Origin: Verrucomicrobiota bacterium
GTDB lineage: Bacteria > Verrucomicrobiota > Verrucomicrobiia > Opitutales > Opitutaceae
Length of the DNA: 50,480 nt
Direction of reading: 5' to 3'
Assembly: GCA_030601755.1 (NCBI GenBank)
Contig: JAUWBF010000016.1
Coordinates: 1 to 50,480, forward strand
Position 1 is the first letter of the stretch, and every line of letters begins with the position of its first letter. Of this stretch, positions 7,636 through 13,636 are shown one piece after another. The notes under the pieces are model-generated. The model was not told where the DNA came from, made no database searches, and was given only the letters and a program-made list of their open reading frames with translations. The position numbers were made by a program, and so were the translations under genes.

Positions 7636-9819
7636 ATGCCCGTTTCCCACCACGCCCTCCTCACGCTCGCGCTGGCCCTTTCGATCGGGTTGATCCTGAT
7701 CGTCGTCTCGCGCCGGCTAAAATTGCCCACGCTGGTCTTCCTCTTGGGCGGCGGTGTGCTCTGCGGCCCCGAGGGGCTGGGCATCCTCGATCCCGAGTCG
7801 CTGGGCGGATTTTTGCCGGTCATCGTGTCGCTGGCGGTCGGCATCATTCTCTTCGAGGGCGGGCTCACGCTCGACATCAAGGGCTACCTCACGGGCTCCA
7901 CCGTCATCAAGCGGCTGCTCAGCGTCGGCGTGCTCGTCACGTGGCTGGGCGTGACGGCCATCGTGCAGTTTTTCTTCAACGTCGGCTGGGACATGGCGCT
8001 GCTCACCGGCAGTCTAGTGATCGTCACGGGGCCGACTGTGATCGCGCCGCTGCTCAAGCGCATCCGCGTGCAACCGCGCCTGCACCACATCCTGCAATGG
8101 GAAGGCGTGCTGATCGACGCGGTCGGCGTGTTCATCGCGCTGCTCTGTTTCGAATGGGTCACCGCGCAGGCGGGCGGCGGGCAGGCGCTGGTCAACTTCG
8201 GCGTGCGCGCCGTCACCGGCATGGTGCTCGGCCTGGCCGGCGGCTGGGCCATCTACCTCGCGCTCAAGTGGCGGCTCGCCCCCGACAACATGGTCAACGG
8301 CTTCTCGCTCGCGCTGGCCGTGCTGATCTTCGGCCTGAGCGAGACGGTGCAGTCGGAGGCCGGTATTTTGGCCGTCACCGTCGCGGGCCTCGTCGTTGGT
8401 TGGAAACGCCCGGTCGACCTGCAAAAGATCCGCGAGTTCAAGGGCGAGCTCACCGAACTGTTGATCGGCCTGCTCTTCATGCTGCTCTCCGCGCGGCTCG
8501 AGCTCGCCCGCTTCGAGGCGCTCGGCGTCAACGGTCTGATCGCCCTCGGCGTCATGCTGCTCACCGTGCGCCCGCTCTCGATCGCGCTTTGCACTTGGGG
8601 CTCGGGACTGAACTGGCGCGAAAAGACCTTCCTCGGCTGGGTCGCCCCGCGCGGCATCGTGGCCGCGTCGATGGCCTCGCTCTTCGCCCTCGCGCTCGCC
8701 GACCGCGCGGCGCCGGGCTTCGACCCGAACTTCGTCGAGACCTTCACCTACAGCGTCATCGTCAGCACGGTGGTCCTACAGGGCTTCACCGCCGGCGCGC
8801 TCGCCTGGCTGCTCAAGCTCCGCCAACCCGTGCCCAAGGGCTGGCTCGTGCTCGGCGCCCACGGCTTCGCCCGCTCCGTCGCGCAGTTCCTCGGCCGGAC
8901 CACCGGCACGCCCGCCGTCATCATCGACCGCAACCAGCGCGAGGCCGCGCAGGCCGCGCGCGAGGGCGCCACCACCATCGTCGCCGATGCGCTCGAACCC
9001 GAGGCGCTCAGCACGCGCCAGGAACTCGTCCACTGCGGACACTTGCTCGCCCTCACGGAAAACTCCGACCTAAACGAACTCGCCTGCCACCGCTGGAGCG
9101 AATTCCTGCCGCGCGACAACCTGCACCGTTGGAGCACCGACGGCTCGGCCCGCCACCACCGCGTCACCCACGGCACGCCCGTCTGGACCGAGCTGCCCCG
9201 CCCCGGCCTCATCGCCGGCGAACTCGCCACCGGCGAAAGCTCCTTGGAGGAGTTCGCCGTCGCAGGCCCCGGCCCGTTGCCCGCGCAGACCGTGCCGCTG
9301 ATGTTTGTGCGCGACGGCCACGCTCGCCCGGTCAACACCGCCAAGCCCGACTTCCGCAAGGGCGACCGCGTGCTGCTGCTGCGCCGCTCCGGCAGCTACC
9401 TCGCCGGCGCGCTCGCCGCGGGCGGCCTGCTCGACCTGCCCAACAGCGAGATGCAGTCGCCCTACACGACGCTGATCGACTTCCTCCGGCGCAGTTATCC
9501 GGCGCTCGATCCCGAGGCGCTCGCCGAGGACCTGCGGACCCGCGCCGAGTCGTTCCCCTTTGACATCGGCCACGGCGTGTCGGTGCCGCATGGATACGCC
9601 CCGCAGTTGCCGGGTCGGGTCTGCCTGCTCGGCCGTGACAAGAGCTTCGGCGCGCTCACCTTCCTCGTGCTCAGCCCGCATTCCGACGCCGACAGCCACC
9701 TCGCCACGCTTGGCGAGATCGCTCGCATGTGCTCCGCGCCCGAGCGCCGTCAGGCGTTGCTCGAGGCCAACGACCTCAGCACCATCGTCGCCCTCGCCCG
9801 CGAGTTTGGTCACGGCTAG
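7636..9819 (+). CDS. CPA1-type cation/proton antiporter with RCK-like and PTS EIIA-like domains
   Basis: 727 residues. Residues 1 to about 395 are a Na+(K+)/H+ antiporter of the NhaP type (KLPTLVFLLGGGVLCGPEGL; FEGGLTLDI; VTGPTVIAPLLKRIRV; GWVAPRGIVAASMASLFAL). From about 400 comes a nucleotide-binding RCK/TrkA-N-like segment (LVLGAHGFARSVAQFLG; VIIDRNQREAAQAAREGATT), then a TrkA-C-like stretch. From about 610 the C-terminus looks like a PTS fructose-type EIIA domain, with the phospho-acceptor pattern DIGHGVSVPHG placing the candidate active His at residue 652. Such a domain could link ion transport to phosphotransfer or act as an unphosphorylated sensor. No PTS genes are nearby. The EIIA assignment is less certain than the antiporter. 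Confidence 0.8.
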   Translation: MPVSHHALLTLALALSIGLILIVVSRRLKLPTLVFLLGGGVLCGPEGLGILDPESLGGFLPVIVSLAVGIILFEGGLTLDIKGYLTGSTVIKRLLSVGVLVTWLGVTAIVQFFFNVGWDMALLTGSLVIVTGPTVIAPLLKRIRVQPRLHHILQWEGVLIDAVGVFIALLCFEWVTAQAGGGQALVNFGVRAVTGMVLGLAGGWAIYLALKWRLAPDNMVNGFSLALAVLIFGLSETVQSEAGILAVTVAGLVVGWKRPVDLQKIREFKGELTELLIGLLFMLLSARLELARFEALGVNGLIALGVMLLTVRPLSIALCTWGSGLNWREKTFLGWVAPRGIVAASMASLFALALADRAAPGFDPNFVETFTYSVIVSTVVLQGFTAGALAWLLKLRQPVPKGWLVLGAHGFARSVAQFLGRTTGTPAVIIDRNQREAAQAAREGATTIVADALEPEALSTRQELVHCGHLLALTENSDLNELACHRWSEFLPRDNLHRWSTDGSARHHRVTHGTPVWTELPRPGLIAGELATGESSLEEFAVAGPGPLPAQTVPLMFVRDGHARPVNTAKPDFRKGDRVLLLRRSGSYLAGALAAGGLLDLPNSEMQSPYTTLIDFLRRSYPALDPEALAEDLRTRAESFPFDIGHGVSVPHGYAPQLPGRVCLLGRDKSFGALTFLVLSPHSDADSHLATLGEIARMCSAPERRQALLEANDLSTIVALAREFGHG

Positions 9820-11264: not shown

Positions 11265-11813
11265 ATGACAACCGTCTCGCCCAAGGCCTTGCAATGGACC
11301 GCCGCGGCGCTCGTGCTGGTCGCCGCGCTCTGGATCGCACCGCCGTTTGTGCTGCCCTCGCGCGGCCTCGACCACGCCTGGGACCGCCTGCTCGACGCGA
11401 TGGAGAACCGCGACCAGGATAGCCTGCGCGAGCTCATCGCCGAGGACTACCGCGACGGCTTTGGGCAATCCCGCGAAGAGGCCATCGCCCTCTTCGACCA
11501 GGCCGCCGGTCAGTTCGTCTCGATCAACATCCGCCGCCTGCGACCGGTCGTGCACGTCGAGTCCGCGCGACTCGGCACGACCGAGGCGATCATTCGCGTG
11601 GGCGGCCACGGCACGCCGCTGGCGCAGATGTTGGTGCAGGGCTCCGCCGTGATCGACGCGCCCACCGAGTTCCGCTGGCGTCGCACCGGCTGGCAGCCCT
11701 GGCGATGGCAGCTGACCTTCATCGACAACCCCGCCGTGCGCAACGACGTGCGGCAGTTCCGCGCGCGTCTGGAACGCCTGGACCGCGAGACCGGCGGCGC
11801 GTTGTTGCGCTGA
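11265..11813 (+). CDS. Membrane-anchored hypothetical protein, possible NTF2-like fold
   Basis: 182 residues. One N-terminal membrane segment (WTAAALVLVAALWIAPPFVL) is followed by a soluble domain whose pattern fits an NTF2-like fold (DHAWDRLLDAMENRDQDSLRELIAEDYRDGF; EEAIALFDQAAGQF; then beta-rich RVGGHGTPLAQMLVQGSA and WRWQLTFID). The fold is a guess by pattern. It starts 7 bp after the preceding gene, so it belongs to the same transcript. A GAAG stretch before the ATG is one of the few ribosome-binding-like sequences here. Confidence 0.6.
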   Translation: MTTVSPKALQWTAAALVLVAALWIAPPFVLPSRGLDHAWDRLLDAMENRDQDSLRELIAEDYRDGFGQSREEAIALFDQAAGQFVSINIRRLRPVVHVESARLGTTEAIIRVGGHGTPLAQMLVQGSAVIDAPTEFRWRRTGWQPWRWQLTFIDNPAVRNDVRQFRARLERLDRETGGALLR

Positions 11814-11834: not shown

Positions 11835-11864
11835 TTGACAGCCGGTGCGCGCCCGCGCTTTGTC
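11835..11864 (+). promoter_or_regulatory. Possible promoter of the attenuated aminotransferase unit
   Basis: TTGACA at 11835-11840 matches the -35 consensus perfectly. A -10 at 17-18 bp spacing would be ctttgt or tttgtc, which is weak. Transcription from about 11870 would place the leader-peptide ATG 10-15 nt from the 5' end. Confidence 0.35.
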
Positions 11865-11883
11865 GGCGTTTCCAACGTCTCTC

Positions 11884-11985
11884 ATGACCCTCGCCTCCGC
11901 CAACGTCCACAGCCTCGCCGCCCACATTTCCTCCGTGGTCGTCGCCGTCGTCGTGTCCGTTACCCGCGCGCCGCGAGGGGCTTGA
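11884..11985 (+). CDS. Valine-rich leader peptide
   Basis: A 33-codon ORF with the look of a branched-chain amino-acid leader peptide. Residues 18-26 are VVVAVVVSV, giving seven Val codons in nine, then TRAPRGA and stop. This is very like the layout of E. coli IvbL, which has a Val-run near its C-terminus and a short tail. A strong terminator starts 18 nt after the stop. Within the RNA, cctcgc (11913-11918) can pair with gcgagg (11973-11978), and gaggggc (11975-11981) can pair, with one bulge, with gccccctc (12003-12010), giving the mutually exclusive stems expected of attenuation. It has no obvious ribosome-binding site. Confidence 0.6.
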   Translation: MTLASANVHSLAAHISSVVVAVVVSVTRAPRGA

Positions 11986-12002
11986 TTGTGCAACCCACTT
12001 TC

Positions 12003-12038
12003 GCCCCCTCCGGTGCCAAACCGGAGGGGGCTTTTTTT
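12003..12038 (+). terminator. Attenuator-type intrinsic terminator
   Basis: A perfect 12-bp stem, GCCCCCTCCGGT (12003-12014) with ACCGGAGGGGGC (12020-12031), has a 5-nt loop and is followed by seven T residues. It sits just after the Val-rich leader peptide and before the small ORF and aminotransferase, as a transcription attenuator would. Confidence 0.85.
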
Positions 12039-12096
12039 ATGGGGCTCTCAACGGGAAAAACATCGGTCGGGGCGGTTTCCAAAACCACCACCGACA

Positions 12097-12315
12097 ATGA
12101 AGACCGCCACCCACACCCGCCCGACCCAACCCGGCCGCCCGCGCTGGCCCGAAGCGCGCGGACGCGCCCCGGAGCCGACCGCGCCCGCGTTCACGCCGGA
12201 TATCGCTCCCGACACGCCCGCCCATGACTTCTTGGTCATCAACCCGCGGCCAGACCTGATCCCTCCGCCGCCCCCGCCTGACGACCTCACCTTCTACAAC
12301 ATCGACTTCCCGTGA
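12097..12315 (+). CDS. Small proline-rich protein, coupled to the aminotransferase
   Basis: A 72-residue ORF with a basic N-terminal half (MKTATHTRPTQPGRPRWPEA) and a proline-rich C-terminal half (ending in six prolines, then DDLTFYNIDFP). Its stop overlaps the GTG start of the aminotransferase in the sequence GTGA, so the two are probably translationally coupled. No family is recognised. It could be a real small protein, or an ORF whose main role is to bring ribosomes to the downstream start. Confidence 0.5.
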   Translation: MKTATHTRPTQPGRPRWPEARGRAPEPTAPAFTPDIAPDTPAHDFLVINPRPDLIPPPPPPDDLTFYNIDFP

Positions 12316-13544
12316 CACCGCCCGACCATCCGCTGCCCCTCGCCGCCCGCGCCGAGGCTTTTCGCCCGAGCGCCATCCGCGAGATCCTGAAGCTCACCGC
12401 CCGTCCCGGCATCGTGTCCTTCGCCGGCGGCCTGCCCGCGCCCGAGCTCTTCCCCGTCGACGCCGTGGCCCGCGCCTGCGAGCAGGTGCTCTCATCCGGC
12501 GGCGCCTCCGCGCTGCAATACGACGTCACCGAAGGCCACGCGCCCCTGCGCGAGTGGATCGCCGCGCACCTCGCCGAACACGATGGACCGATCGCTCCGG
12601 TTGAAAACATTCTCGTCACCAACGGCGGCCAGCAAGCCCTCGACCTCGTCGCCAAGGTCCTGCTCGATCCCGGCGACACCGTTTTTACCGAAAACCCCAG
12701 CTACCTCGGCGCGCTCCAGGTGTTTCGCGGCTACCAAGCCCGCATCGTTGGCCTGGCCTCCGATCATGAAGGCCTGCTGCCCGACGCGCTCGAGCACGCG
12801 CTCGCGACCGCGTCCGCCAAGCCGAAGTTTCTCTACCTCATTCCCAATTTTCAAAACCCCACCGGCGTCACCCTCCCCTTGGAGCGCCGCCTGCGCATCG
12901 CCGAGATCGCCGCGCGTCACCGGCTCATCGTGCTCGAGGACGACCCCTACGGCCGCCTGCGCTTCGAGGGCGCGTCCCTCCCGGCCGTCTCCGCGCTGCC
13001 CGCCGGCCAAAGCTGGATTCACCTCGGCACCACCAGCAAGATCCTCACGCCCGGCCTGCGCATCGGCTGGGTCGCCACCGCCGACTCGCGGCTCCACGAA
13101 AAGCTCGTCAGCGCCAAACAGGCCGCCGACCTGCACACCGCGAGCTTCAACCAGCGCGTCGTCAACGCCCTCGTGCGCACGCCCGGCCTGCTCGAAAACC
13201 ACGTGCGCGAACTGTGCGCGACCTACCGCCGCCGCCGCGACCTCATGTTGTCCGCGTTGGAACAACACCTGCCGCCCGGCTGCACCTGGACGCGCCCCGA
13301 GGGCGGCCTCTTCCTCTGGCTGCGCCTCCCCGGCGAAGCCAACGCGCTGGCGCTGCTCTCGCGCGCCATGGAGGCCAAGGTCGCCTACGTGCCCGGCGCG
13401 CCGTTTTGGACCGACCGGCCCGACGCCGCCACGTTGCGCCTCAACTACAGCAACGCCACCGACACCGCCATCCGCGACGGCGTGGCGCGCCTAGGCCAAG
13501 TCATCGCCCACGAAGTCTCGCCCCCCGCCCCCGCTCTCGCCTGA
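12312..13544 (+). CDS. PLP-dependent aminotransferase, class I/II (2-aminoadipate/MocR-like catalytic type)
   Basis: 410 residues from the GTG at 12312. Fold-type I aminotransferase signatures are FAGGLPAPELFPVDAV, LQYDVTEGHAPLREWIA, TNGGQQALDLVAKVLLDPGD, PNFQNPTGVTLPLERR, EDDPYGRLRF and the PLP-lysine motif GTTSKILTPGLRIGW. It resembles LysN-type 2-aminoadipate/leucine aminotransferases and the catalytic half of MocR regulators, but has no GntR DNA-binding domain. The Val-rich attenuator upstream suggests a branched-chain amino acid (valine, leucine or isoleucine) as its product; that is an inference. It is coupled to the small ORF before it. Confidence 0.85.
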   Translation: MTPPDHPLPLAARAEAFRPSAIREILKLTARPGIVSFAGGLPAPELFPVDAVARACEQVLSSGGASALQYDVTEGHAPLREWIAAHLAEHDGPIAPVENILVTNGGQQALDLVAKVLLDPGDTVFTENPSYLGALQVFRGYQARIVGLASDHEGLLPDALEHALATASAKPKFLYLIPNFQNPTGVTLPLERRLRIAEIAARHRLIVLEDDPYGRLRFEGASLPAVSALPAGQSWIHLGTTSKILTPGLRIGWVATADSRLHEKLVSAKQAADLHTASFNQRVVNALVRTPGLLENHVRELCATYRRRRDLMLSALEQHLPPGCTWTRPEGGLFLWLRLPGEANALALLSRAMEAKVAYVPGAPFWTDRPDAATLRLNYSNATDTAIRDGVARLGQVIAHEVSPPAPALA

Positions 13545-13609: not shown

Positions 13610-13636
13610 CGATTGTCACTTATTAAGTGACAATCG
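13610..13636. repeat. Palindromic repeat 'TTGTCACTTA' (family C), single copy
   Basis: Perfect 13-bp arms, CGATTGTCACTTA and TAAGTGACAATCG, lie around one T. The same core appears twice more, at 27101-27121 and 27167-27187, inside a coding sequence. This copy lies in the 202 bp between the aminotransferase and the DUF2937 gene; the rest of that gap shows no clear feature. Confidence 0.8.

Follow-up and report, generated by a model that had tools for sequence, protein, structure and literature searches.

Amino acid attenuators are known on biosynthetic enzymes. In a 50,480-nucleotide stretch of DNA (hereafter the window) from a draft genome of 3.55 Mb in the family Opitutaceae, a short open reading frame (ORF) crowded with valine codons and followed by a terminator precedes an aminotransferase gene. 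This raises the question of whether the gene lies under ribosome-mediated attenuation that responds to valine and, if so, whether the aminotransferase is the main target. The original prediction, made from the letters of the window, proposed an attenuator of the ivbL/ilv type on an orphan aminotransferase and not on acetolactate synthase. Here, we report a comparative analysis of this locus across the family.

Layout and conservation of the leader locus

All features described are on the forward strand. The upstream gene occupies 11265-11813, and the terminator lies 190 nucleotides past its stop with a -35-like box of the putative leader promoter, TTGACA (11835-11840), in between. A scan of the region for sigma-70 promoters with a -10 element returned no sites. 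The leader ORF (11884-11985, MTLASANVHSLAAHISSVVVAVVVSVTRAPRGA) runs for 33 codons from an ATG at 11884 to a TGA at 11983-11985. Codons 18-26 (11935-11961) read VVVAVVVSV, i.e. seven Val in nine, and no other nine-codon stretch of the 50-kb window, in any of its six frames, contains seven or more. The codons for RAPRG contain the predicted 5' arm of an antiterminator (region 2, about 11968-11980) that pairs with about 12005-12016, which is the 5' arm of an intrinsic terminator (12003-12038) found by a terminator scan and composed of a 12-bp stem (12003-12031) and seven T residues (12032-12038). The box, the ORF with its Val run, the stem with its T tract and the mutually exclusive pairing are all present as originally described. 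The scan found one terminator in the region against a mean of 2.2 in shuffled sequences, hence the terminator alone is within chance expectation. A comparison of the window with Rfam gave no family at its gathering score; the nearest, anti-hemB, came to 25.4 bits where 49.5 is required.

Behind the terminator lie a gene for a microprotein of 72 residues (12097-12315; core HDFLVINPRPDL) and the gene for a PLP-dependent aminotransferase of class I/II (410 residues, 12312-13544), the GTG start of which (12312) overlaps the microprotein stop. Between the aminotransferase gene and a DUF2937 gene, a perfect 13-bp inverted repeat with a 1-nt centre (CGATTGTCACTTA/TAAGTGACAATCG; 13610-13636) is a possible operator. 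Elsewhere in the window (7636-9819), a sodium/hydrogen exchanger has a TrkA-N domain and a PTS EIIA-like C-terminus that scores just under the Pfam cut-off.

A search of 252 family genomes for the aminotransferase gave a match at E <= 1e-80 in 45, and 30 loci were read upstream. Conservation upstream of orthologous genes had been put forward as the check on the prediction, and the Val run and terminator do recur in all 17 assessable loci at an identity of at least 54%, the window's own locus and 16 homologous leaders in aminotransferase-bearing relatives. None of the 12 loci at 52% identity or less has a leader with terminator. Locus L069 was excluded from the 17, its sequence beginning 36 nt upstream of the match; its element seemingly lies at the end of another contig (L132). 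Four of the 15 matches without a fetched locus were covered (L014, L015, L016 and G263). Five further distant loci (L014-L018), of which L017 and L018 are the most remote, all lack the element; G263, with an aminotransferase fragment at 51% identity, carries it nonetheless. Val is abundant in each of the 17 leaders, which close with APRG plus one residue (TPRG in L070); the leader of L068 starts with TTG instead of ATG. APRG itself is found in 16 of the 17 and the residue preceding it varies (R, N, T, C, I, Y), which suggests that the motif is held by RNA pairing and not by the peptide. The microprotein stop overlaps the ATG or GTG of the aminotransferase (as ATGA or GTGA) in 16 of the 17 loci, among them L079, where the aminotransferase frame breaks later; L077 has no overlapping start.

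Similar leaders (85 pairs) keep the reading frame in 53 of 54 one-sided gaps, with a weak codon-position bias (0.35/0.28/0.37). In a looser set of 1577 pairs, codon bias was absent and 3734 of 8259 gaps had a length divisible by three; this set is trusted less because its alignments were gap-rich; in these gap and codon counts the leader pairs are non-independent. Over 115 leaders, the 16 residues before the APRG-like motif are 40% Val, 19% Ser and 14% Ala. The mean number of Val among the 16 is 5.7 in the aminotransferase class (18 leaders), 6.4 in the microprotein class (82) and 7.0 in the ilvB class (15), a count that drops leaders without a recognisable motif and includes only 15 of 31 ilvB leaders. 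Leaders that end otherwise (ARREG, APREE) still match the RNA model.

Distribution and RNA pairing of the element

A covariance model built from the 17 element sequences and applied at E <= 0.01 matches 147 of the 252 Opitutaceae genomes. In a sample of 337 genomes from the phylum, all matches below 1e-6 fall within the family, and the best one outside it (G386, same order, 5.3e-6) is on an ilvB. A second model match in the window's genome (C29, E 0.005) was rejected as not being a leader. Among the matches listed, 147 loci in 138 genomes were read, a contig-end match in G129 being among those left out. Behind the element there is an ilvB in 31 loci, the aminotransferase in 18 and neither in 98. 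The small ORF, sought with an iterated profile at E < 0.01, follows the terminator in 103 loci, namely all 18 with the aminotransferase, 85 of the 98 others and none of the 31 with ilvB. By target, the 147 loci comprise 85 with the small ORF alone, 18 with small ORF and aminotransferase, 31 with ilvB and 13 others. Four of these 13 end within 200 nt, two have a below-threshold variant, two appear spurious, one has an ilvN-type gene (G004) and four have related MFS transporter genes. One of the transporter loci (L263 in G005) has a clear Val leader, MHFAGLPIHANLSVCLVDVVVVAVVSN. The leaders of the other three (L198, L209 and L262 in G232, G235 and G239, of one genus) are weaker (MNIRCLNPGAKAAHITVAAWVAVLVVGTP), and the MFS genes of the four loci are 60-86% identical to the L198 copy.

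The microprotein is thus the element's commonest target and the aminotransferase joins it in one clade. We rejected the aminotransferase as sole target, given the 85 loci that have element and small ORF and no aminotransferase. With a second ilvB behind it in 31 of the 147 loci and an ilvN directly behind it in one, the element is placed in an acetolactate synthase attenuator family, and in this respect the original contrast between an orphan aminotransferase and acetolactate synthase does not stand.

This second ilvB shares 40-46% identity with the ilvB of the window's genome. A loose pattern found an ilvN ORF behind it in 23 of 30 stretches (22 of 30 without L366, where the ORF is probably in the wrong frame), and NCBIfam models of the acetolactate synthase small subunit match the ilvN products of L355 (over one cut-off) and G004 (below all). 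Two ilvB copies (E <= 1e-150) occur in 46 of the 252 genomes. They are present in 27 of the 30 family genomes with an ilvB element and in none of the 99 with a microprotein element and no ilvB element, ten of the 103 microprotein genomes being drafts without any ilvB match at that threshold. In 19 of the 46, the loci read included no ilvB element. Both kinds of element occur together in four genomes, G029, G034, G131 and G263. The single ilvB match in the window's own genome has no such leader, and an attenuator on this gene was rejected, its upstream region holding a tRNA-Met gene and another terminator instead. A crude scan of 19 best-match ilvB loci of the family (among L090-L113) returned no Val leader with terminator; L090 and L096 have hydrophobic ORFs upstream and no terminator.

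Region 2 is predicted to pair with the 5' arm of the terminator at -22 to -28 kcal/mol (15 of the 17 sequences), and 96.6% of antiterminator cells are paired in the 17-sequence clade. An excess of paired changes was not seen there (93 of 500 shuffles reach the observed value), and covariation could not be demonstrated in this clade because the antiterminator columns vary too little; the terminator does show covariation within it. A wider test used 100 attenuators, aligned by a model without the antiterminator and after 25 antisense or partial rows had been dropped. In this set 91.1% of antiterminator cells are paired and five pairs, with ten cells, are changed on both sides, whereas 300 shuffles gave a mean of 1.3 such pairs and none reached five. 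Slid antiterminators are paired in 43-58% of cells, with covariation scores of 0.036-0.080 against 0.142 for the real one. Since they also give 3 pairs and 7 to 30 cells changed on both sides, the count of such changes proves little by itself, and support from the 100 attenuators comes from the cells paired, the covariation score and the shuffles. The terminator is paired in 99.3% of cells (10 tested pairs).

Arms were also swapped between loci, in 121 of 134, the others having no recognisable arm or upstream sequence. For 2:3, own arms gave -22.2 versus -21.5 for swapped arms (sd of swapped means 0.08) and -14.2 for a shuffled arm, and for 3:4, too, own arms pair better than swapped ones. The 1:2 protector stem, which is part of the textbook attenuation scheme, gave -20.6 versus -20.3 swapped and -20.0 shuffled in the same loci, values that are indistinguishable. 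Comparison therefore supports the predicted antiterminator and terminator and not the 1:2 stem, and because the latter is not convincing our proposal is confined to a two-state switch. The promoter box is conserved too: TTGAC is invariant in the 17 aligned loci, and of 132 wider loci with sufficient upstream sequence, 123 have it at a distance of 60-200 nt (median 124 nt) before the antiterminator arm, against a background of 28 in 710 windows of 140 nt.

The microprotein and the aminotransferase

The microprotein measures 58-111 residues from the first Met (median 69; 103 copies) and is variable outside the core HDFLVxNxRPDL, in which the L after F is invariant and the D is kept in 101 of 103 copies. 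Its substitutions are distributed 0.26/0.23/0.50 over the codon positions (59 pairs), a pattern that the protein-based alignment favours. Pfam and NCBIfam searches assigned it to no family, and a sequence-only search for relatives among 16250 ORFs of 231 loci gave nothing above noise. No common gene lies beside the lone microprotein gene, the largest cluster covering 8 of 85 loci and lying on the opposite strand, and a crude scan found a terminator after it in 0 of 84 loci versus a background of 5 in 414. In G238, a genome from a genus that also includes several carriers, the small ORF persists and the aminotransferase is missing. Its microprotein gene (L130), under the attenuator, adjoins what appears by eye to be a convergent gene for a 2-dehydropantoate 2-reductase-like protein; 2-dehydropantoate 2-reductase is an enzyme of a branch from 2-oxoisovalerate.

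The core, as HDFLVLNxRPDL, aligns ungapped and with equal spacing to L[HY]DVLxVRxRPDL at the C-terminus of IlvN. Comparison of the microprotein and IlvN profiles, the latter from a set of 24 that takes in the doubtful L366, scored 22.1 against a mean of 7.6 and a maximum of 14.7 in 150 column shuffles and 7.5 for reversed IlvN; an earlier set of nine IlvN scored 21.5 (maximum of 60 shuffles, 10.4). Seven of the nine IlvN ranked in the top nine of 459 single-sequence templates, and the other two, including that of G004, ranked 30 and 38. Plain hmmsearch with the microprotein profile left IlvN in the noise, and hhalign probabilities were low (14% and 28% for two profile forms). IlvB also exceeded its shuffles, if by less: its score of 16.9 was equalled in 1 of 100 and 0 of 60. 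This tells against the IlvN reading, and IlvB itself was rejected as the source of the microprotein, its score being weaker than that of IlvN. Taken together, these results are suggestive of a resemblance between the microprotein core and the IlvN C-terminal tail. No ACT domain was seen in the microprotein: the window's copy has no Pfam match, and no ACT family is among the five that gave a hit to one or more of 71 members (E <= 0.5). The resemblance is strengthened because the attenuator is shared and an ilvN-type gene stands directly behind it in G004.

We tentatively put forward, as a possibility that is more likely to be wrong than right, that the microprotein is a remnant of IlvN cut down to its C-terminal tail and kept under the old ilvBN valine attenuator after the operon was copied or lost. 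As a free peptide it might now target acetolactate synthase or the regulatory subunit of that enzyme, and the aminotransferase would have been recruited to a starvation-induced unit. If true, bacteria would have here a microprotein that descends from a regulatory subunit and is governed by codon-specific attenuation.

The aminotransferase matches PF00155 at 125.2 bits (cut-off 19.7) and PF12897 just under its cut-off, and does not match PF01063, the class IV family of IlvE-type enzymes (Aminotran_4). Its best solved relative is the Thermus 2-aminoadipate aminotransferase LysN (2egy, E 3e-93), and archaeal relatives are also among the nearest solved structures. The likeness to LysN/KAT-II-like enzymes consists of this match over residues 16-398 and of Ser20 and Arg23, which align with the same residues in LysN, where we take them to govern broad specificity. 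None of the 25 NCBIfam families listed for the enzyme scored over its cut-off; valine-pyruvate transaminase (NF006967) reached 83.9 bits versus a curated 402. As to compensation for a loss of ilvE, the window's genome has two class IV aminotransferase genes, neither over the cut-offs of the NCBIfam models that it matches. Because a valine attenuator precedes the gene, the enzyme is predicted to act on valine or other branched-chain substrates.

Proposed mechanism, alternatives and known systems

Comparison of the loci shows conservation of the leader frame, the Val run, the predicted antiterminator and terminator, the promoter box and the operon. The Val-codon run thus stands in a short ORF of conserved frame, and the terminator is paired with a mutually exclusive antiterminator; together with the promoter box, these features uphold ribosome-mediated attenuation of the ivbL/ilv type. 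We consider it very probable that the element is such an attenuator, sensing valyl-tRNA, on a microprotein-aminotransferase operon. RNA synthesis would begin downstream of TTGACA, with a ribosome following on the 33-codon leader. When charged tRNA-Val is ample, the ribosome would reach the stop codon and cover region 2, the terminator at 12003-12038 would form and the RNA would end near 12038. When tRNA-Val is uncharged, the ribosome would stall on the Val run, upstream of region 2, which would then be free to bind the terminator's 5' arm, and the polymerase would continue into the microprotein and aminotransferase genes. The overlapping stop and start would then couple translation of the two. 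The transcription start, the stalling, the response to valine and the coupling are thus predictions from the conserved layout.

Among the other explanations, the one that comes closest holds that the element controls the microprotein alone, with the aminotransferase expressed mainly by other means and its position secondary. The 85 of 147 loci without an aminotransferase, the orthologues read at 52% identity or less that have no element, and G238, which keeps the microprotein, all speak for it. We regard it as unlikely nevertheless, as the overlap of stop and start in 16 of 17 aminotransferase loci speaks for a single transcript with coupled translation. Stalling could also depend on the nascent peptide, the C-terminal APRG arresting the ribosome and the Val codons being incidental. 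RAPP-type arrest peptides do stall ribosomes, and APRG is nearly invariant in leaders of the aminotransferase class and common in others. Its conservation is however explained by the coincidence of its codons with the antiterminator arm; moreover, leaders ending in ARREG or APREE are still recognised by the RNA model, APRG is preceded by a variable residue and the 40% Val would be left unexplained, which makes peptide-specific arrest improbable.

A metabolite-binding riboswitch or a protein-binding leader with an incidental ORF is, in our estimate, improbable as well. A short hairpin in the SVV codons does seem, by eye, to be changed on both sides in a few loci; the Val run and the 53 of 54 gaps in frame speak against this explanation, and no Rfam family was matched at its gathering score. 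In a GC-rich genome where a single terminator is no more than shuffles give, one might suspect that the ORF stands by chance next to a terminator belonging to the gene at 11265-11813. This explanation is refuted: all 17 assessable orthologous loci share the layout, the model matches 147 of 252 genomes, and the element has its own -35 box between the upstream stop and the terminator.

Under the attenuator reading, the microprotein can be placed in the physiology of valine starvation and linked, in a testable way, to acetolactate synthase, and a function can be predicted for the orphan aminotransferase. The targets of this one family of Val attenuators would range from a second ilvB and ilvN to an aminotransferase operon, an MFS gene (two genera) and, in the largest number of loci, a microprotein by itself.

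In E. coli, the leader of ivbL-ilvBN (AHAS I) is Val-rich, its antiterminator arises from the end of the leader ORF, and a terminator follows. The window element has these three features in common with it, and in relatives the likeness extends to the target, the element preceding ilvB with ilvN next in most stretches read. At the window locus, in contrast, microprotein and aminotransferase follow in place of ilvB and ilvN, and the leader ends in APRG. As described in PMC10272879, the Corynebacterium ilvB-II uORF, ilvB-OMG and Leptospira ilvB motifs likewise combine an upstream ORF rich in branched-chain codons with a terminator/antiterminator, and every member of the Leptospira motif contains three or more Val codons in a row; those motifs are on ilvB and in other lineages, and are likened here by description and not by sequence. 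A literature search over titles and abstract openings listed no paper on a Val attenuator in the phylum of the window, PMC11611912 (on EF-P) and PMC10242142 (on Chlamydia) dealing by their titles with other subjects. Hence, the general kind of control, ribosome-mediated attenuation, is known, and the element is homologous to the ilvB attenuator of its own family; the arrangement of its targets is new.
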